DNA of 64,000 nucleotides from Haloferax sp. Q22 (GTDB lineage: Archaea; Halobacteriota; Halobacteria; Halobacteriales; Haloferacaceae). How positions within the stretch are numbered: position 1 is the stretch's first letter; each line of letters opens with the position of its first letter. Below the pieces are notes generated by a model, which saw only the letters and a program-made list of their open reading frames with translations, was not told the DNA's origin and ran no database searches. The stretch spans positions 186,001-250,000 of the forward strand of contig NZ_LOEP01000027.1 in the NCBI RefSeq assembly GCF_001482285.1, given 5' to 3'. Made by a program: the position numbers and the translations under genes. Positions 1,495 to 41,316 of this stretch are shown piece by piece.

Positions 1495-2586
1495 ATGGGC
1501 CTTCGCAAGCCGCCGTTGTACGACGTCCACGCGGACGCCGGGGCGACGTTCACCGAGTTCGGCGGATGGGACATGCCTGTGGAGTACGACTCCATCAAGG
1601 CCGAACACGCGGCCGTCCGAGAATCGGTCGGCATCTTCGACGTTTCGCACATGAGCGAACTCGAGGTGTCCGGCCCGGACGCGACCGCGCTGATGCAGCG
1701 CCTGACGACGAACGACGTGACGGCCCTCGAACCGGGTGACTCGCAGTACTCGGCCATCGTGAACGACGAGGGCGTCATCATCGACGACACCGTCGTCTAC
1801 CGACTCCCCGACCGCGACGAGCGGGTCTATCTCTTCATCCCGAACGCCGGCCACGACGAGGAGATGTACGACCGCTGGACCTCGTTCCGCGACGACTGGG
1901 ACCTCGACGCGACCGTCGAGGACGTGACCGAGGACTGGGCGATGTTCGCGGTACAGGGCCCCGACGCCCTCGATTCTGTCACCGACGCCGCGCCCGACGC
2001 GGCCCTCGGCGACCTCTCGAAGTTCCAAGCGACGTTCGCCGACGTGGTGGGCGTCGAGTGCTGGGTGGCCCGGACGGGCTACACCGGCGAGGACGGCTTC
2101 GAGGTCCTCTGTCCGTGGGACGACGCCGAGACCGTCTGGTCGGCGCTCGACGCGACTCCCTGCGGGCTCGGCTCCCGCGACACGCTCCGACTGGAGATGG
2201 GCTACCTGCTCTCGGGACAGGACTTCGACCCCGAGACGGAGCCCCGGACCCCCTACGAGGCCGGCATCGGCTTCGTCGTCAAACTCGACACCGAGTTCGT
2301 GGGCCGCGACGCCCTCGAACGACAGCACGAGGCCGGCGTCGACGAGACCTTCGTCGGCTTCGCACTCCTCGACCGCGGCGTTCCCCGACACGGCTACGAC
2401 ATCGCCACCCCGGACGGCGAGGTCATCGGCGTCGTGACGAGCGGGACGATGAGCCCGACGCTGTCGGAGCCCATCGGTCTCGGCTACGTCCCCGTCGAGT
2501 ACGCCGACGACGAGACCGAAATCTCGATTCTCGTCCGCGGCCGCGAGAAGCGCGCAGTAATCGTGACACCTCCCTTCATCAACTGA
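1495..2586 (+). CDS. gcvT: Aminomethyltransferase, glycine cleavage T protein
   Basis: This encodes 363 residues, the usual T-protein length. It transfers the aminomethyl group from lipoylated H protein to tetrahydrofolate, releasing ammonia and 5,10-methylene-tetrahydrofolate in the cytoplasm. The start ATG at 1495 gives [20 protein letters not shown], and the next region, [10 protein letters not shown] and [13 protein letters not shown], is the classic N-terminal signature of the family. [13 protein letters not shown] and the C-terminal [20 protein letters not shown] also fit GcvT. The in-frame extension upstream is Arg/Ser-rich and not family-like, so it is left out. It is the first gene of a four-gene operon, with 2 bases between its stop and gcvH. 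Confidence 0.95.
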
Positions 2587-2588
2587 CA

Positions 2589-2969
2589 ATGTTCGAAATC
2601 CCTGACGACCGGAAGTACCTGGAATCGCACGAATGGACCACCACCGAGGGCGACGCCGTCCGTATCGGCATCTCCGACTTCGCACAGGACGAACTGGGCG
2701 ACGTCGTCTTCGTCGAACTCCCCGCCGAGGGCGACGAACTCGCCGCCGGCGAGGAGTTCGGCGTGGTCGAGAGCATCAAGGCCGTCTCGGACCTCTACGC
2801 CCCCATCTCGGGCACGGTCACGGCCGTCAACGAGGAGCTGTTCGACGCCCCGGAACTCCTCAACGACGACCCCTACGGCGACGGCTGGATGCTCGAACTC
2901 GAACCGGCCGACGAAAGCGAGTTCGACGACCTCCTCTCCCCCGAGGAGTACCGCGAGCAGACGGAGTGA
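2589..2969 (+). CDS. gcvH: Glycine cleavage system H protein
   Basis: This encodes 126 residues, normal for the lipoyl carrier that shuttles the aminomethyl group between P and T proteins. The hybrid lipoyl-domain core is visible: [21 protein letters not shown] near the N-terminus and the lipoylation motif [18 protein letters not shown], where Lys64 is the expected lipoyl site. [13 protein letters not shown] closes the domain. It lies 2 bases after the gcvT stop and 1 base before gcvPA, so it is certainly cotranscribed with them. No lipoate ligase or lipoyl synthase is in the window. Confidence 0.96.
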
Positions 2970-2970
2970 G

Positions 2971-4314
2971 ATGACGGCTGGAAACGGACGGCGGGCCGGA
3001 AGCCCGTACGCCCCACACACCGACGCCGACGAGGAAGCGATGCTGGACGCCGTCGGCGCCGACAGCGCCGAGGAGCTCTTCGACATCCCCGATGAGGTCC
3101 GTTTCGACGGCGAGTTCGGCGTCTCCGGTACCGACGAACAGGAGCTCAGGAACGTCATGGCCGACCTGTTTTCGCGCAACGAGGAGCTGACGGAGTTCCT
3201 CGGCCGCGGCCACCACGCCCACTACGTGCCGGCGTTGGTCGACGACCTCTCGCGACGCTCGGAGTTCCTCACCTCGTACACGCAGTACCAGCCCGAAATC
3301 GCACAGGGCTTCCTGCAGGTGCTGTTCGAGTACCAGTCGATGCTGGTCGAACTGACCGGGCTCCCGGTTGCCAACTGCTCGATGTACGACGCCGCGACGG
3401 CGCTCGCCGAGGCCGCGCTCCTCGCGAACCGCCTCCGCCGCGGCGCGAGCGGCCACCGCGTGCTCGTCCCCGAGCACCTCCACGAGGGTCGCCTTGGCGT
3501 CCTCGAGAACTACCTCGACGGCGCAGAGATGGAGATAGGCGAGTACCCGATGGACGACGGCGCGGTCGATGTCGAGGTCCTCGCGGACCTCGTCGACGAC
3601 GAGACCGTGATGGTCTACGCCGAGACCCCGACGGTCCGCGGCGTCATCGAGGAGCGACTCGCCGATATCGGCGACCTCGCACACGACAACGACGCGCTGT
3701 TCTGTCTCGGAAGCGACCTCGTGGCGCTCGCGCTCCTCGAAGAGCCCGCGAGCGTCGGTGCCGACGTGGTCGTCGGCGAAGCCGGCGCGCTCGGCCTCGG
3801 CACGGCCTACGGCATGGGCCTCGGCATCTTCGCCACCCGCGAGGAGTACCTCCGGCAGGTCCCCGGCCGCCTCGTCGGCGTCTCCGAGGACAGCGCGGAC
3901 ATGCGGGCGTTCACGCTGACGCTCCAGACCCGCGAACAGCACATCCGCAAGGAGCGCGCGACCTCGAACATCTGTACGAATCAGGCGTGGGTCGCGCTCC
4001 GCACCGCCATGCACATGGCGTGGCTCGGCCCCGACCGCCTCGTCGGCCTCGCCGAGCGGGCGGTCACCGACGCGCGCGACCTCGCCGCCCGGCTGGACGA
4101 GCTTTCGGGCGTCAAAGCGCCGCTCTACGACCGCCACCACTTCCGCGAGTTCGTCGTCCGGACGGACCAGCCCGCACCCGCCATCACGAACGACCTCGCG
4201 GGCCGCGGCTTCGCGGTCCACGCCCTCGACGACCACCACCTGCAGGTCTGTATCACCGACGCGAACGCCGACGCCGCGGACGGACTGGTCGCGGCCTTCG
4301 AGGAGGTCATCTGA
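2971..4314 (+). CDS. gcvPA: Glycine dehydrogenase (decarboxylating) subunit 1
   Basis: This encodes 447 residues, the normal size of the N-terminal half of P protein in organisms with a split enzyme. Together with subunit 2 it decarboxylates glycine using PLP and loads the aminomethyl group on GcvH. Visible family features are [20 protein letters not shown] at the start, [13 protein letters not shown], the [15 protein letters not shown] segment and [18 protein letters not shown] near residue 330. This subunit does not carry the PLP lysine. Its TGA stop overlaps the ATG of gcvPB (TGATG), indicating translational coupling of the two subunits. Confidence 0.95.
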
Positions 4315-34523: not shown

Positions 34524-35204
34524 TCAGAACAGCAGCGAGTCGTCGTTGTCTATCATGTAGAGCGTCCGCGCCGCGACGTTGACGGCGTGGTCGCCGATGC
34601 GTTCGAGGTCGCGCACCGTCAGCAGGAGGCGGCGCACGTCGACGAGCGCGGTCTCGGGTTCGAGGTCGCCGTCGCCCTCGAAGTCGTCGCCGCTCATGAG
34701 GTCGCGGACGATGCTCTGCGACGCGTTGTCACACATCGTGTCGAGGCTGTCGTCGCGCTCCGCTACGGACTGACAGAGGTCGGTGTCTTCGGTCTCGTAG
34801 GCGTCCATCGCCTGGTCGACCATGTCGAGTGCGGCGTCGCCGATGCGGCGGATGTCGACTTCGGTGTAGACGTCGTTTTCGGCGTCGATGGCGTACTGCG
34901 CGAGGTTGGTCGCGAGGTCGCCGATGCGTTCGAGGTCGGTGATGATCTTGAACGACGCCGCGATGAACCGCAGGTCGCCCGCGACTGGCTGTTGGAGCGC
35001 GAGCAGGTCGATACAGTCCTGCTCTAAGTCGAGGTAGATGCGGTTGATTTCGTGGTCGCCCTCGATGACTTCCTGTGCCTTCCGCTCGTCTTTGTCTTCG
35101 AGCGCGTCGAGGGCGTGCCGAACTCGCTCCGAGACGAGTTCGCTGAGATACAACACGTCCTCTTCGAGCTGATTGAGGCGAGACTGGTACGTGTTTCTGG
35201 CCAT
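34524..35204 (-). CDS. phoU: Phosphate signalling protein PhoU
   Basis: This encodes 226 residues, the standard size for two three-helix PhoU repeats. The repeated metal-binding motifs are seen as DLERIGDLATNLAQYA at about residues 90-105 and DLERIGDHAVNVAARTLYM at about 200-218. PhoU restrains phosphate uptake by the Pst transporter and links it to regulation. It lies downstream of pstB, on the same strand but 174 bases away, so it may be cotranscribed or have its own promoter. Confidence 0.93.
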   Translation of the reverse strand: MARNTYQSRLNQLEEDVLYLSELVSERVRHALDALEDKDERKAQEVIEGDHEINRIYLDLEQDCIDLLALQQPVAGDLRFIAASFKIITDLERIGDLATNLAQYAIDAENDVYTEVDIRRIGDAALDMVDQAMDAYETEDTDLCQSVAERDDSLDTMCDNASQSIVRDLMSGDDFEGDGDLEPETALVDVRRLLLTVRDLERIGDHAVNVAARTLYMIDNDDSLLF

Positions 35205-35378: not shown

Positions 35379-36269
35379 TTATCCGAACTTACCGGTGATG
35401 TAGTCTTCGACGCGCTGGCTCTCGGGGTTCTCGAAGATTTTCTGGGTGTCGTCGAATTCGACGAGTTCGCCGCCCGTGAGGAAGACGGCGGTCTTGTCGG
35501 AGATACGCGCCGCCTGTTGCATGTTGTGGGTGACGATAACGACGGTGTAGTCCTCGGCGAGTTCCTCGACGAGGTCTTCGATTTGCGAGGTCGCCACGGG
35601 GTCGAGCGCCGATGCGGGCTCGTCCATGAGCAGCACCTCGGGGTCGGTGGCGATGGCGCGGGCGATACAGAGGCGCTGTTGTTGGCCGCCGGAGAGGTCG
35701 AGACCGGACTCGTGGAGGCGGTCTTTCACCTCGTCCCAGAGGGCGGCGCGCTTGAGCGACTCCTCGACGACCTCGTCGTAGTCGGCGTCGATACCCTGAA
35801 TCTTCAGGCCGTAGACGACGTTCTCGTAGATGCTCTTCGGGAACGGGTTCGGCTTCTGGAACACCATGCCGACGCGGCGGCGGAGCGCGACGGGGTCGAC
35901 GTCATCGTCGTAGACGTTCTTGCCGCGGAGCGTGAGTCCCCCTTCGACGCGGGCGACGTCGATGAGGTCGTTCATGCGGTTGATACAGCGGAGGAACGTG
36001 GACTTCCCGCAGCCAGAGGGACCGATCATGGCGGTCACGCTGTTCTCGGGGATGTCCATCGAGATGTCGGTGAGCGCGTGGTCGTCGCCGTACCAGACGT
36101 TGATGTTATCCGAGCTGATGACGGTCTCGGCGTCCCGCCCCACCGAACTCTCCGACGCAGAGAGCCCGTCGCTCACGTCGGTTTCGACGAGCATCTCGTC
36201 GTTCGTCGGGTCCTCTGTTCCGTTCATGGCTTGCTGTTCTCCCTCGGGTGCTTTGTCTCTTTGGCTCAT
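35379..36269 (-). CDS. pstB: Phosphate ABC transporter ATP-binding protein
   Basis: This encodes 296 residues. About 50 acidic residues precede a normal PstB domain, [20 protein letters not shown]. Walker A is GPSGCGKST at residues 83-91, the signature is [16 protein letters not shown], Walker [13 protein letters not shown] and the H-loop [13 protein letters not shown]. It energises phosphate import through PstA and PstC. It follows pstA by 9 bases and belongs to the leftward order pstS-pstC-pstA-pstB. Confidence 0.96.
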
Positions 36270-36278
36270 TGATGGTGT

Positions 36279-37907
36279 TCAGTTTTCACTTTCGAACTTG
36301 TTGCGCAGGACGATGGCGATGGAGTTCATCGCGAGGAGGACCGCCAGGAGGACGACGACGCCCGCCGGGACGGCCTTCGTGTAGAAGTCCTCGCTGGCGA
36401 ACAGGCTGGACCACGCGTACACCTGCAGGGGCATCGCGCTCACCTTCGAGGAGAGCTCCGTCGGCAGGTTGAAAAGCACGTTCGGCGCGCCGATCATGAT
36501 GAGCGGCGCGGTCTCGCCGATGGCCCGGCCGAGCGCGAGGATGGTCCCGGTCAGGATGCCGGGGAACGCCTCCGGGAGGACGACGTTCTTCACGGTCTGC
36601 CAGCGCGTCGCGCCCATCCCGTATGACGCCTGCCGCATGTCGCCGGGCACGGCCCGGATCGCCTCGCGCGAGGAGATGATGACGATGGGCAGGATGAGGA
36701 GCGCGAGCGTCGCGCCGCCGATGAGGACCGTCCCCGTCGGCTGGCCGAGATAGGTGACGAACACGCCGAGTCCGAGCAGCCCGTAGACGACCGAGGGGAC
36801 GCCGGCGAGGTTCGAGATGTTCACGTCGATGAATCGGGTGAAGGCGTTGTCGGGGGCGTACTCTTCGAGGTACACCGCCGCGCCGACGCCGAGCGGGAAC
36901 GAGAGGGCGGCGACCGTCGCCATCAGCAGGATGGAGCCGCCGATGGCCGGATAGAGGCCGGCGTTCTCCGCGGTCCCGCTGTGGGCGCTCGTGAGGAACT
37001 GCCAGTCGACCCACGACTGCGGGCCGGCGAAGCCGAGCGCGTCGACCGCGACCGCGCCGACGAGCGAGCCGCCGATGACGGCGGCCGCGAGCAGGAGGCC
37101 GATTCGCTCCTGTTCACGGGTGACCGCCGCGCCGCCGGCGTAGGCCACCGTGGGAACGAACGCGACCGACGTGACGACGGCGGCGGCGTTGGCGTCGACG
37201 CCGAGCATCGGGCCGACGACGGCCGCGAGACCGGTCAAGACGACCGTTGACGCGCCCGCCGCGAGTCCCGCGGTGGTGTTCTCACGGATGCGGGCGACGT
37301 ACTGGCCGACGACGACTGCGGCCGCGCCGCCGAGGACGAGCGTCAGAATCATCCAGTCGGCGGGGACCACGGGGAGTTGCCGGACGATTTCGGGGATACT
37401 GTGGAAGTAGCCCGGGACGCCGACGAGCGAGAGAACGAACGCGGCGCCGGTCGCGGCGACGCGGAGGGTGAAGGGAATCTGCTGTTCGTACTTCGTCAGG
37501 ACGACGACGAGCGCCGCCGGGACGAGGAGGCCGACGACGTACGAGAGGCCGGTCAGCGGCGGGATGATGTCGACGAAGACGATGGCGACGCCACCGCTGA
37601 ACATCAGGAACACGGCGAGCATCCCGACGACCATGCCGCCGAGTTTGAGCGCCGGCACGTTGCGCCGGGCGAGGTAGCCGCCGACGACCGTCGTGGGGAC
37701 GACGAGCGTCAGGAAGAAGGTGAGATGCCAGCCGAGGTCGGCGGTGAGCGGGCGAATCGCGTCGTTGGCGACGTAGACGAGGAGGACGGCGAGGGTGACG
37801 ATGCCGAACATCGTCGCGGCCAACAGCAGGTACCGGAAGACCGTCCCGGTGGTTCGGCTGACCTGTCCGAAGCTGTCGATGTAGCCGGAGTCGGTGTCGG
37901 TCGCCAT
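36279..37907 (-). CDS. pstA: Phosphate ABC transporter permease PstA, long form
   Basis: This encodes 542 residues, nearly twice the size of bacterial PstA. The last about 280 residues form the classical permease with LYPAIGGSILLMATVAALSF and the cytoplasmic loop EAIRAVPGDMRQASYGMGAT, which contacts PstB. The first about 260 residues hold seven or so additional hydrophobic spans (first at about 24-48) that have no transporter signature. Long PstA forms are known in haloarchaea as far as I recall. It starts 1 base after the end of pstC. Confidence 0.92.
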   Translation of the reverse strand: MATDTDSGYIDSFGQVSRTTGTVFRYLLLAATMFGIVTLAVLLVYVANDAIRPLTADLGWHLTFFLTLVVPTTVVGGYLARRNVPALKLGGMVVGMLAVFLMFSGGVAIVFVDIIPPLTGLSYVVGLLVPAALVVVLTKYEQQIPFTLRVAATGAAFVLSLVGVPGYFHSIPEIVRQLPVVPADWMILTLVLGGAAAVVVGQYVARIRENTTAGLAAGASTVVLTGLAAVVGPMLGVDANAAAVVTSVAFVPTVAYAGGAAVTREQERIGLLLAAAVIGGSLVGAVAVDALGFAGPQSWVDWQFLTSAHSGTAENAGLYPAIGGSILLMATVAALSFPLGVGAAVYLEEYAPDNAFTRFIDVNISNLAGVPSVVYGLLGLGVFVTYLGQPTGTVLIGGATLALLILPIVIISSREAIRAVPGDMRQASYGMGATRWQTVKNVVLPEAFPGILTGTILALGRAIGETAPLIMIGAPNVLFNLPTELSSKVSAMPLQVYAWSSLFASEDFYTKAVPAGVVVLLAVLLAMNSIAIVLRNKFESEN

Positions 37908-37908
37908 T

Positions 37909-38868
37909 TCAGTATGCCTCCCGGTAGCGCCGCGAGACGTAGTCGCTGATGACGTTCATGATGAGCGTGATGACGAAGAGCACGAGGCCGATTGCGAACA
38001 GACTGCGGTAGGCCAGCCCGCCACCGGTGATGTCACCGGTGAGAAGCTGGACCATCGCGGCGGTCATGGGCAGCGCGCCTTCGAGATACGACGCGGGGTT
38101 CAGCGGATTGAGGAACTTCGCCTGCGCGCCCGCGGCGACGGTGACGGCCATCGTCTCGCCGATGGCGCGCGAGAGCGCGAGGATGAAAGAGGAGAAGATA
38201 CCGGAGAGCGCGGCGGGGACGACGATGCCGGTCGACACGTCGAACTTCGTCGCGCCCATGCCGTAGCCCGCCTGTCGGAGTTCGTCGGGGACGGCGGACA
38301 TCGCGTCCTCGCTGATGGAGGCGACCATCGGGATGATCATGATGCCGACGACGATGCTCGCAGAGAGCATGTTGAACGTCCCGATGCTGGGGAAGACGAC
38401 TTCCAGCGCCGGCGTGATGTAGATGAGCGCGAAGAAGCCGTAGACGACGGTCGGGACGCCAGCGAGGATTTCCAGCGCGGGTTTGAGAATCGAGCGCGCC
38501 TGTGCGCTCGCGTACTCGCTGAGGTAGATGGCGGTGGCGACGCCGAGCGGGAGCGCGATGACAGCCGACCCGATCGTGACCATCAGCGTCGCCGACACGA
38601 GCGCCAGCACGCCGAACTCTTGGCTGTGTATCTGCCACGTGGTTCCGGTGAGGAAGTCGACGATGGACGCCGTCTCCCCCGCGACTCCCATCAGCGGGGC
38701 TGTCAGCGTGAAGAACTTGGACGCCTCCGTGATGAGAAGGCCGACGATACTGAGGGTCGTCACGACGGACAACGCCGCGCACAGGAAGAAGAACGACCGC
38801 GTCAGTAGCTCACGCGGCGAATTCTCCGTGTTCCGCGTGAGGTCGGTTTCGAGGTCATCTGTGCTCAT
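37909..38868 (-). CDS. pstC: Phosphate ABC transporter permease PstC
   Basis: This encodes 319 residues, the usual PstC length, with about six membrane spans. The first is at about residues 26-50 and the binding-protein-dependent transport signature is seen in AMSAVPDELRQAGYGMGATK at about residues 205-224. Also typical are VPLGVATAIYLSEYAS-like (ALPLGVATAIYLSEYA) and KPALEILAGVPTVVYGFFAL. It pairs with PstA to form the phosphate channel. It lies 63 bases after pstS in the same operon. Confidence 0.95.
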   Translation of the reverse strand: MSTDDLETDLTRNTENSPRELLTRSFFFLCAALSVVTTLSIVGLLITEASKFFTLTAPLMGVAGETASIVDFLTGTTWQIHSQEFGVLALVSATLMVTIGSAVIALPLGVATAIYLSEYASAQARSILKPALEILAGVPTVVYGFFALIYITPALEVVFPSIGTFNMLSASIVVGIMIIPMVASISEDAMSAVPDELRQAGYGMGATKFDVSTGIVVPAALSGIFSSFILALSRAIGETMAVTVAAGAQAKFLNPLNPASYLEGALPMTAAMVQLLTGDITGGGLAYRSLFAIGLVLFVITLIMNVISDYVSRRYREAY

Positions 38869-38931: not shown

Positions 38932-39969
38932 CTAGTTGGCTTCCTCGATGGCCGCGTTGAGCGTGTCGAGCATCTCCTGTTGCTCGTCCTCGCTGAGCGG
39001 GACGTAGCCGACCTCTTCGGCGACGATTTCGCGGCTGGTGGCGTTGTCAATCCAGTAGCGAGCGAACTCGGCGACGTGGTTCTCCGCGAGCGACTCGCGG
39101 GCGGGGTAGGTGAAAAGCGGGCGGGAAAGCGGGTTGTACTCGCCGGACAGGGCCGTGTCGAGCGACGGTTCGACGAATTCGCCGGCGTCGTTCTCGATGG
39201 CGACCGCCTGCACGGCGTCGGTGTTCTCACTGTAGTACGCGAAGCCGAGGTAGCCGATGGCGTACTCGGAGCCCTGAACGCCCTGGATGATGGTGCGGTC
39301 CTGCTCGGTCGCGGAGTAGTCCTGGCGGTGGCCCGGACCCTCCTCGCCGAGGATGGCCTCGATGAAGTAGTCGTACGTACCGGAGGCGTCGGTGGGACCG
39401 TAAATCTCGATTTCCTCGTCGGGCCACTCGGAATTGACGTCGGACCACGTCGTCGGCGTCGACTCGGCCGAGAAGATGGTCCGGAGCTGTTCGACGGTGA
39501 GGCCCTCGCCGATGAAGTCGTTGTCGTTGTTGACGATGACCGTCAGCGCGTCGGTGGCGACCTTGAGTTCGACGGGGGTCACGTCGTTGTCCTCACACTG
39601 CGTCTCTTCTTCGCCCTTGATGGGGCGGGAGGCGTTGTTGAAGTCGGTCTGACCCGTACAGAAGTAGTTCGCGAAGCCGCCACCGGAACCGGTGGACTGG
39701 AGGTTGATGTTGACCTCGGAGTGCTCGGTCTGGAAGCGCTCACCCATCGCGGTTGCGAGCGGGAACACCGTCGAGGAGCCGGCGATGTCGATGGTTCCCG
39801 AGAGCTCGTTGCTCCCGTCGCCCGACGAATCCTCACCCTCGGAGTCGCCGCCGGAGCCACCGTTGTCGGTGTTGTTCTCCGTACACCCGGCGAGTCCAGC
39901 GAGACCGGCCGCGCCCGAGGCAATCAGGAACTTACGCCGCGAAAGACCACTGTCCGAGTTACGCGTCAT
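38932..39969 (-). CDS. pstS: Phosphate-binding lipoprotein PstS
   Basis: This encodes 345 residues. A Tat lipoprotein signal, SRRKFLIASGAAGLAGLAGC, puts the lipid anchor at Cys29, followed by an acidic Gly/Ser linker. The mature domain has IDIAGSSTVFPLATAMGERF with the phosphate-binding Ser/Thr region, STGSGGGFANYFCTGQTDFN, and SRPIKGEEE, all typical of PstS. It captures phosphate outside the cell for PstCAB. It is the first gene of the operon, and the divergent AbrB-PhoU gene begins 345 bases away. Confidence 0.95.
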   Translation of the reverse strand: MTRNSDSGLSRRKFLIASGAAGLAGLAGCTENNTDNGGSGGDSEGEDSSGDGSNELSGTIDIAGSSTVFPLATAMGERFQTEHSEVNINLQSTGSGGGFANYFCTGQTDFNNASRPIKGEEETQCEDNDVTPVELKVATDALTVIVNNDNDFIGEGLTVEQLRTIFSAESTPTTWSDVNSEWPDEEIEIYGPTDASGTYDYFIEAILGEEGPGHRQDYSATEQDRTIIQGVQGSEYAIGYLGFAYYSENTDAVQAVAIENDAGEFVEPSLDTALSGEYNPLSRPLFTYPARESLAENHVAEFARYWIDNATSREIVAEEVGYVPLSEDEQQEMLDTLNAAIEEAN

Positions 39970-40314
39970 CGATTTTGACGAGCCGATTTTGTCGTAAATA
40001 CCCTGCTATGACGACTATATAGTGGTACGTTCCGGTATATCCACAACGATTGATAACGTGTGACAAGAACGGGCCAAAATCGACGAAAGCAGCCGATTGT
40101 TCCATTCGCGGCCGTCTCGTGCGCGGTCTTTCCCCAACGTGTCAGGAAACGCGGGACGCACGGCCGACTGGGACGGCGCAAAACAACTACTGAGTGGGCG
40201 GTGTTTCGAGCCCGAATCGGCACGAGTCACGTTCGTCCGCGCCCATCACATAAAATATGGCTTCAATATATAGAGATAGACAGTTTTATTGTGTATTGAG
40301 AACCACCCACGGAC
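39970..40314. promoter_or_regulatory. Divergent control region of pst and the AbrB-PhoU regulator
   Basis: This region of 345 bases holds no gene. For pstS, the minus strand has a TATA-like gtatttac about 28 bases before the ATG, and the perfect palindrome ACTATATAGT at 40014-40023 about 50 bases before it, which may be a second TATA element or an operator. For the regulator gene, TTTTATT at 40284-40290 lies about 28 bases before the ATG at 40315, and aatatatagag lies further up near 40265. The middle part is ordinary GC-rich sequence. Phosphate control is expected here but no box can be proven by eye. Confidence 0.55.
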
Positions 40315-41316
40315 ATGGTCGAAACCCGAAAGGTGCAGGTGACGGGTGGTTCCACCTACACCGTCTCGATTCCCAAAGACTGGGCGACGGACAACGGCGT
40401 CTCGGCGGGGAGCGAAGTCGAGTTCTATCCGGAGGGCGACTCGCTGTTCTTGACGCCCCGCTCGGAAGAAGAACGCACTGAGGGAACCCTCGACATCGCG
40501 ACCCTCGAAGGCGACGAACTCACGCGCGCCGTCATGACGATGTACGTGAGCGGGTTCGACATCATCGCGCTGGAGAGTTCGCGCATCACGACCGACCAGC
40601 GGCGGACCATCCGCGAGGCGACCCAGAGCCTCGTCGGTCTCGAAGTGCTCGAAGAGACGCGCGACCGGGTCGTCATCCGCGATCTGCTCGACTCCTCCGA
40701 GCTATCCATCCACAACGCGGTCACCCGGATGCGACTCATCTCGCTTTCGATGCTCGAAGACGCTATCGCGGCTATCGCCGAGCAGGACGACGACATGGCC
40801 CGCGACGTCATCCAGCGTGACGACGACGTCGACCGCCTCTGGATGGTCGTCTCCCGCATCTTCCGCGCGACGCTCCGGACCCCGAAGGCCGCCGAGGAAC
40901 TCGGTCTGCCCCGCGAAATCTGCTTCGACTACCAGTCCGCCGCCCGGCAACTGGAGCGCATCGGCGACCACGCGACCAAAATCGCCCACCTCTCGTTGAA
41001 CTTCGAGGAGCCGGTCGACGACGAAATCGTCGAGGCGATTCAGGAGCTGTTCGAGGAGGCGAAGGCCGTCGTCAACGGCGGCATGGACGCGCTGTTCGCC
41101 GAGGAGAGCGACGAGGCGAGCCGCCTCGCCAACGAGTCCCGCGAAGCCGTCCAGGCCATCGACACCAGCGCCCGCGGCATCGACGAGCTCCTCCGCGGCC
41201 TCGACCCGGCCCGCGCGCAACTGCTCGGCCTCATCGTCGACTCCGTCTCCCGGAGCGCCGACTACGGCGGCAACATCGCCGAGACGGCGCTTCAGAAGGC
41301 CGCGCCGACGCCCTGA
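40315..41316 (+). CDS. AbrB-type DNA-binding and PhoU-domain regulator
   Basis: This encodes 333 residues. The first about 50 residues are a SpoVT/AbrB-like swapped-hairpin domain, VETRKVQVTGGSTYTVSIPK and VSAGSEVEFYPEGDSLFLTP. The rest is PhoU-like with repeated helices, including the metal-binding AARQLERIGDHATKIAHLSL at about residues 206-225 and SVSRSADYGGNIAETAL at the end. The fusion suggests a transcriptional regulator that senses phosphate status, and the divergent position to pstSCAB supports control of that operon. Direct binding is not shown. Confidence 0.88.
   Translation: MVETRKVQVTGGSTYTVSIPKDWATDNGVSAGSEVEFYPEGDSLFLTPRSEEERTEGTLDIATLEGDELTRAVMTMYVSGFDIIALESSRITTDQRRTIREATQSLVGLEVLEETRDRVVIRDLLDSSELSIHNAVTRMRLISLSMLEDAIAAIAEQDDDMARDVIQRDDDVDRLWMVVSRIFRATLRTPKAAEELGLPREICFDYQSAARQLERIGDHATKIAHLSLNFEEPVDDEIVEAIQELFEEAKAVVNGGMDALFAEESDEASRLANESREAVQAIDTSARGIDELLRGLDPARAQLLGLIVDSVSRSADYGGNIAETALQKAAPTP

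Follow-up and report, generated by a model that had tools for sequence, protein, structure and literature searches.

The 64-kb window of Haloferax sp. Q22 (the whole stretch of DNA that was analysed) contains a pst phosphate-transport operon and, facing away from it, a gene for a protein in which an AbrB/MazE DNA-binding domain is joined to PhoU. The best explanation of the locus as a whole, held with reasonable confidence, is that the fusion would be a one-component phosphate regulator acting on pst and on its own gene, with boxes in both promoters and a probably activating role at low phosphate. The observed basis of this explanation comprises the domain make-up of the protein, the divergent layout, a box present in both promoters with fixed spacing across the class, and the absence of a PhoB-type domain. 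The locus bears on how archaea sense phosphate in the absence of PhoR-PhoB, for it offers a short, exactly placed candidate operator together with a candidate regulator. A phosphate-sensing transcription factor without a two-component system would, if true, differ from the bacterial model.

The pst locus and the fusion protein

The genes of the locus, in window coordinates, are as follows.

34524..35204, minus strand: phoU, stand-alone, without a DNA-binding domain (TIGR02135, 174 bits, over the cut-off of 130.25)
35379..36269, minus strand: pstB, ATPase (TIGR00972 score over the cut-off)
36279..37907, minus strand: pstA, permease (PF00528; named by operon position)
37909..38868, minus strand: pstC, permease (PF00528; named by operon position)
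38932..39969, minus strand: pstS, phosphate-binding protein (TIGR02136 score over the cut-off)
40315..41316, plus strand: fusion of AbrB/MazE, middle alpha/beta and tandem PhoU parts, 333 aa, candidate regulator

The fusion reading frame and pstS diverge and are 345 bp apart. A preliminary description of the DNA had reported, within 39970-41316, an AbrB-PhoU fusion divergent from pst and distinct from the PhoU at 34524, and this layout is confirmed. The coordinates are correct, PF04014 and PF01895 both match the fusion, the genes pstS, pstC, pstA, pstB and phoU all lie on the minus strand, and the stand-alone phoU at 34524-35204 is a separate gene. Named Haloferax species have fusion proteins up to 99% identical to that of the window.

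The N-terminal part of the fusion matches PF04014 (MazE_antitoxin, the Pfam name of the AbrB-like domain) over residues 8-52 with 41.8 bits, against a cut-off of 24.7, and the same model matches 26 of 26 aligned members of the family at E up to 1. Among these 26 diverse members, R5, V7, Q8, T10, G11, G12, S13, T14, T16, S18, P20, K21, W23, and A24 are invariant, which gives the signature RxVQxTGGSTxTxSxPKxWA. The PhoU model PF01895 matches residues 136-225 with 73.5 bits. The PhoU equivalog TIGR02135 aligns with residues 130-324 at 55.8 bits, below its cut-off of 130.25, and this indicates that the fusion is not a canonical PhoU. The first PhoU bundle has D169, D173, E214, R215, D218, and H219 invariant in the 26 members, including the motifs D169xxxD173 and E214xxxD218, while in the second bundle DSxxRxADYGGNIAE replaces the usual ExxxD-type motif. 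The DxxxD/ExxxD motifs of PhoU presumably have a metal role.

An AlphaFold2 model of the whole fusion, built from 30 aligned sequences, has a mean pLDDT of 79.6. Residues 130-330 of the model form six helices arranged as the two three-helix bundles of the PhoU fold, and they resemble the PhoU crystal structure 1t72_G (Z 26.0, rmsd 2.0, 193 aligned). Between the AbrB and PhoU parts, residues 56-123 comprise a conserved beta-alpha-beta-alpha-beta-beta domain that is covered by no Pfam model. Its best fold match (residues 54-125) is Alba 2z7c_D, with Z 9.2, rmsd 2.2 and 72 aligned, and TsuB, SirA-like, and Smr domains tie with Alba within 1 Z unit. Because of this tie, the likeness of the modelled domain to Alba, an archaeal chromatin protein, may reflect no more than a common arrangement. 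The fold matches of this domain are also described as Alba/TusA/Smr-like, with Z up to 9.2. The AbrB part has low confidence in AlphaFold monomer models of both the whole protein and residues 1-128 alone, perhaps because AbrB-type domains fold as swapped dimers. Searches with the full model by Foldseek and VIA list PhoU structures throughout, and the absence of AbrB from them is uninformative.

Conserved boxes in the pstS and fusion promoters

The promoter elements between the two genes are the following.

39995..40000, minus strand: TATTTA, probable TATA box of pstS by its position, 26 nt before the ATG
40006..40011, minus strand: TCATAG, the pstS promoter's second repeat, whose ATAG is 9 bp from that of the first; it abuts the BRE region
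40015-40021, minus strand: TATATAG core of ACTATATAGT, upstream box of the pstS promoter
40025..40030, minus strand: ACGTAC, possible third, degenerate upstream repeat
40267..40273, plus strand: TATATAG box of the fusion promoter, 48 nt before the ATG and 18 nt before TTTA
40284..40290, plus strand: TTTTATT, probable TATA box of the fusion gene, assigned by position

The pstS promoter has the pattern TATATAG-N3-TCATAG-NAG-GG-TATTTA, in which ATAG recurs each 9-10 bp. The box begins 21 nt upstream of TATTTA, and the second repeat lies in between. Within the window, TATATAG occurs in this intergenic region only, at 40015-40022 (on both strands of a palindrome) and at 40267-40273.

The palindrome is the perfect 10-mer ACTATATAGT at 40014-40023, to which the preliminary description had drawn attention as a feature of the pstS promoter. 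Its position is exact. The 64-kb window contains it once (none in 100 shuffles), and so does the whole genome, for which 3,977,555 bp in 56 contigs with 99.88% completeness were searched. The special status given to it stands as regards uniqueness and the conserved TATATAG core. It does not stand as regards palindromy, since the window contains 105 perfect 10-nt palindromes, equivalent to 0.57 expected per 345 nt, and palindromes that common are by themselves no evidence. Palindromy was also rejected as a conserved property of the operator. The outer A..T pair is variable (A 0.34, T 0.26 in the promoters of 61 genera), and the left C is less conserved than the right G, both in the pstS promoter (0.61 vs 0.80) and in the fusion promoter (0.28 vs 0.82). 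The candidate operator is instead the directional repeat TATATAG ... TCATAG, 9 bp apart, which would be palindromic here by chance. Its significance comes from the conservation of the TATATAG core and of its distance to the TATA box.

The comparison across haloarchaea used 130 loci oriented on the fusion gene, 76 of which have a divergent PstS match of at least 150 bits. One locus per genus gave 77 genera, and in 61 of these the divergent promoter matches a 17-nt TATA-side pattern with up to 3 mismatches; column frequencies were taken from these 61 promoters. Their consensus is C(0.61)-T-A-T-A-T-A-G(0.80)-N3-T-C/A-A-T-A-G-N-A-G-N-G-T-A-T/C-T-T-A. The ATAG starts cluster at columns 28 (18 promoters), 38 (45), and 47 (56), a spacing of 9-10 bp, or about one helical turn. 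The column of the third repeat reads ACATAG in other genera, with ATAG there in 18 of 61. Some genera (loci L165 and L168-L177) have one or two extra TATATAG-like copies upstream of pstS, within the 30 nt that precede the two conserved repeats and at intervals of about 10 and 20 bp.

In 56 of 77 genera, a 25-nt pst-type pattern with up to 3 mismatches lies divergently within 700 nt of the fusion gene, compared with 0 of 77 on the other strand and 0 in 20 shuffle sets. At up to 2 mismatches, 263 of 391 class genomes contain it (3 contain the reversed pattern) and 128 lack it, including most of the Halorubrum-like g2 genomes, which have TATATAT-like words in the fusion promoter instead (L072-L074). 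Among the 30 best matches listed, a non-random selection, PstS is downstream in 28, pstB in one, and a PstS-like ORF without a match in one; the fusion is divergent in 29 of the 30.

The preliminary description had overlooked the second TATATAG copy, in the promoter of the fusion gene itself. Of the 77 genera, 51 have TATAG at -60..-38 relative to the fusion gene (shuffles: mean 4.4, maximum 10) and 33 have TATATAG there (mean 0.5, maximum 2), and the commonest TATAG start is -46, with 24 occurrences. Variants of the TACATAG type take the same position in several genera that lack the strict word. A looser score, which had no shuffle control, places a box before the fusion gene in 76 of 77 genera; by this score 52 of the 76 have their first TTTA-like word 18 nt from the box, and 7 have no such word. 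The two promoters thus have the box in common and differ in geometry. Because TATATAG precedes the fusion gene, the copy implies autoregulation, as judged from sequence.

The fusion family is present in 292 of 292 class genomes and in 362 of 392 phylum genomes, haloarchaea included. Outside the haloarchaea, 72 fusion loci comprise 45 with a pst gene within about 4 kb and 27 with none; the 45 pst-adjoining loci are divergent in 26 cases, on the same strand in 17, and otherwise arranged in 2. Nine genomes carry the fusion in duplicate, and a divergent pst-type site accompanies 15 of these 18 copies (up to 3 mismatches; shuffles 0). Protein, box, and transporter thus seem to travel together. Before the non-haloarchaeal fusion genes, in 150-nt windows that are approximate since some start codons are badly guessed, CTATATA has 35 copies in the 72 loci against 5.5 in shuffles. 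Other TATA words are likewise enriched there (TATATAC 23 vs 5.5, GTATATA 16 vs 4.5), so the CTATATA enrichment is only suggestive of a box conserved outside the haloarchaea.

A larger regulon in the Q22 genome was considered and rejected. With up to 3 mismatches the 25-nt pattern is found at the pstS promoter only, and TATATAG-N9-16-TTTAT has a single match, in the fusion promoter, against 2 for the reversed control; this word is rare, not enriched. At five other CTATATAG places in the genome, no matching promoter layout was seen by eye (reversed control 10).

Proposed regulation and alternative explanations

The fusion is predicted to bind the box. Its AbrB/MazE domain, as a dimer or higher oligomer, would bind the pstS promoter at its TATATAG/TCATAG repeats and also the single TATATAG box before the fusion gene. 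The PhoU part would supply the phosphate signal, and it may read the phosphate state by touching the PstB-containing transporter or by way of a metal/phosphate site of its own. At low phosphate, the bound fusion would most likely help TFB/RNA polymerase start at pstS, and the fusion would adjust its own level via its own box. The output of bacterial PhoU is indirect; with PhoU and a DNA-binding domain in one protein, it could be measured directly. The preliminary description had already proposed that the fusion regulates phosphate uptake directly. The sequence comparison supports such a role, whereas the operator is corrected to the directional repeat, and regulators of this kind are already in print. 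Several observations count against the model: the second Haloferax pst operon lacks the box although it is starvation-induced in H. volcanii, about one third of class genomes are without the strict pattern, TATATAG-N9-16-TTTAT is rare and not enriched in the genome, and the AbrB part is poorly modelled as a monomer.

Activation by the fusion is favoured over repression. Archaeal activators usually bind upstream of the BRE and TATA box, and the boxes here lie upstream of both, which fits an activator. The NAGGG stretch between the repeat and the TATA box is a poor-looking BRE when judged against the BRE consensus. In Halobacterium salinarum, pho-boxes are reported to be essential for pst upregulation (PMC6560208, citing Furtwangler et al. 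2010), and this too favours activation.

A repressor is a possible but clearly less probable alternative. The fusion, its PhoU part engaged by Pst at high phosphate, would block TFB at the adjoining BRE, and shortage would release it. The TCATAG repeat touches the BRE region, and bacterial PhoU proteins are negative regulators, but the strongest box lies further upstream, in the position usual for archaeal activators. In the available part of the account of HVO_2374 of Haloferax volcanii, a transposon mutant shows hypochlorite tolerance, attributed by the authors to raised phosphate or polyphosphate (PMC6267482). The mutant behaves as they expect from raised phosphate uptake, and its phenotype leans to repression. 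Against this, the pho-boxes of H. salinarum are reported in the available text to be essential for induction (PMC6560208).

It is unlikely that a different transcription factor, either a paralogue of the fusion or an unrelated protein, binds the boxes while the fusion acts on the transporter only. The genome encodes three AbrB-PhoU proteins, and in some genera the box is present although no PstS match lies beside the fusion in the stretch read. However, 51 of 77 genera also have the box before the fusion gene, it follows the fusion in duplicated loci, and the N-terminal DNA-binding signature is invariant. It is highly improbable that the conserved sequences are mere core promoter elements (BRE/TATA and their spacing) of strong haloarchaeal promoters, for although most of the conserved words are TATA-like and each promoter has an ordinary TATA box as well, TATATAG is confined to this intergenic region in 64 kb, the 25-nt pattern has a single match in 3.98 Mb (up to 3 mismatches) and almost only at pst across the class where checked, and 18-21 nt separate the box from the TATA box downstream of it.

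The one-component regulator favoured here may be part of a wider scheme, which is proposed tentatively. In it, an ancient archaeal switch, the counterpart of PhoR-PhoB, would hold DNA-binding and PhoU parts in one protein, would be wired to pst and to itself by one ATAG-repeat box, and would have been kept phylum-wide, from haloarchaea to methanogens.

Known systems and the second pst operon

The locus shares with the bacterial PhoR-PhoB system the Pst genes and a PhoU-domain protein, and in both a direct-repeat operator, the pho box in bacteria, lies near the pstS promoter. In contrast, the DNA-binding and PhoU parts form one protein here, and the box is unrelated to the bacterial pho box. 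The OmpR/PhoB-type DNA-binding domain PF00486 has 0 matches in the 99.88% complete genome; as a control, it was found in 10 of 14 genomes, all bacterial, and in none of 4 archaea. The lack of a two-component system put forward in the preliminary description is thus upheld for the OmpR/PhoB type, which is the scope of the search.

The closest described protein is HVO_2374, or 'PhoU2', of H. volcanii, a predicted regulator with an N-terminal DNA-binding domain and PhoU that adjoins pst1 (PMC6267482). It has the same genus-level context and locus arrangement as the fusion, to which it is likened by description and layout. An operator, conservation of the box, and autoregulation are absent from the available portion of that account. 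In haloarchaea, PhoU transcription factors and pho-boxes control pst, according to the accessible text of a further paper (PMC6560208). The pho-boxes or P-boxes of H. salinarum are, like the present box, pst promoter elements, and they are reported to be needed for phosphate-dependent induction; they are cited for both pst operons, whereas the box described here is at pst1 only. For a phoU mutant of H. salinarum, differential growth is reported both in standard conditions and under stress (PMC5605881). TK2245 of Thermococcus kodakarensis, annotated as 'SpoVT/AbrB family, containing PhoU domain', was detected by mass spectrometry in isolated chromosomes (PMC7325993). It has the same described domain pairing and is likened to the fusion by description only; in the part of the paper available, the chromosome fraction also contains ribosomal and membrane proteins.

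The domain pairing, the place beside pst, and the predicted role are already in print for H. volcanii, as are PhoU factors with pho-boxes for haloarchaea. The class-wide box, the repeat geometry, the copy in the regulator's own promoter, and the phylum-wide synteny are new, none of them having been found in the open-licence literature. The same search, outside which most subscription papers lie, gave no report of the fusion protein bound to DNA. The box as it occurs in H. salinarum may already be described by Furtwangler et al. 2010. The candidate regulator has a relative in every haloarchaeal genome examined (292/292), which makes the proposal testable in H. volcanii.

The genome has a second operon, pst2 (L389, G000:C56:127000-138500), at whose end lies a divergent AbrB-PhoU paralogue of its own (2518-3531), 28% identical to the fusion. 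The pst2 core promoter has no TATATAG box in H. alexandrinus, H. mediterranei, and the Q22 genome, the three examined. A TATATAG-like word about 120 nt upstream at pst2 stands before the divergent gene with a different spacing and was not counted. In the available text, pst2 of H. volcanii is described as starvation-induced (PMC6560208). Since pst2 lacks the box and yet is induced there, it must be served by another factor, perhaps its AbrB-PhoU paralogue. The pst2 promoter (CTCTGATAGAACTAAA...GTATTATAAACGC) is common to the Q22 genome, H. alexandrinus, and H. mediterranei.

The third AbrB-PhoU fusion (L390 4557-5624, G000:C52) is also 28% identical, with no Pst match within the 10 kb read. 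A gene for a 'halo transducer protein' adjoins pst2 on plasmids of H. alexandrinus and H. lacusprofundi (L386 626-1621, L398 9036-9983). This neighbour may link phosphate uptake to taxis.
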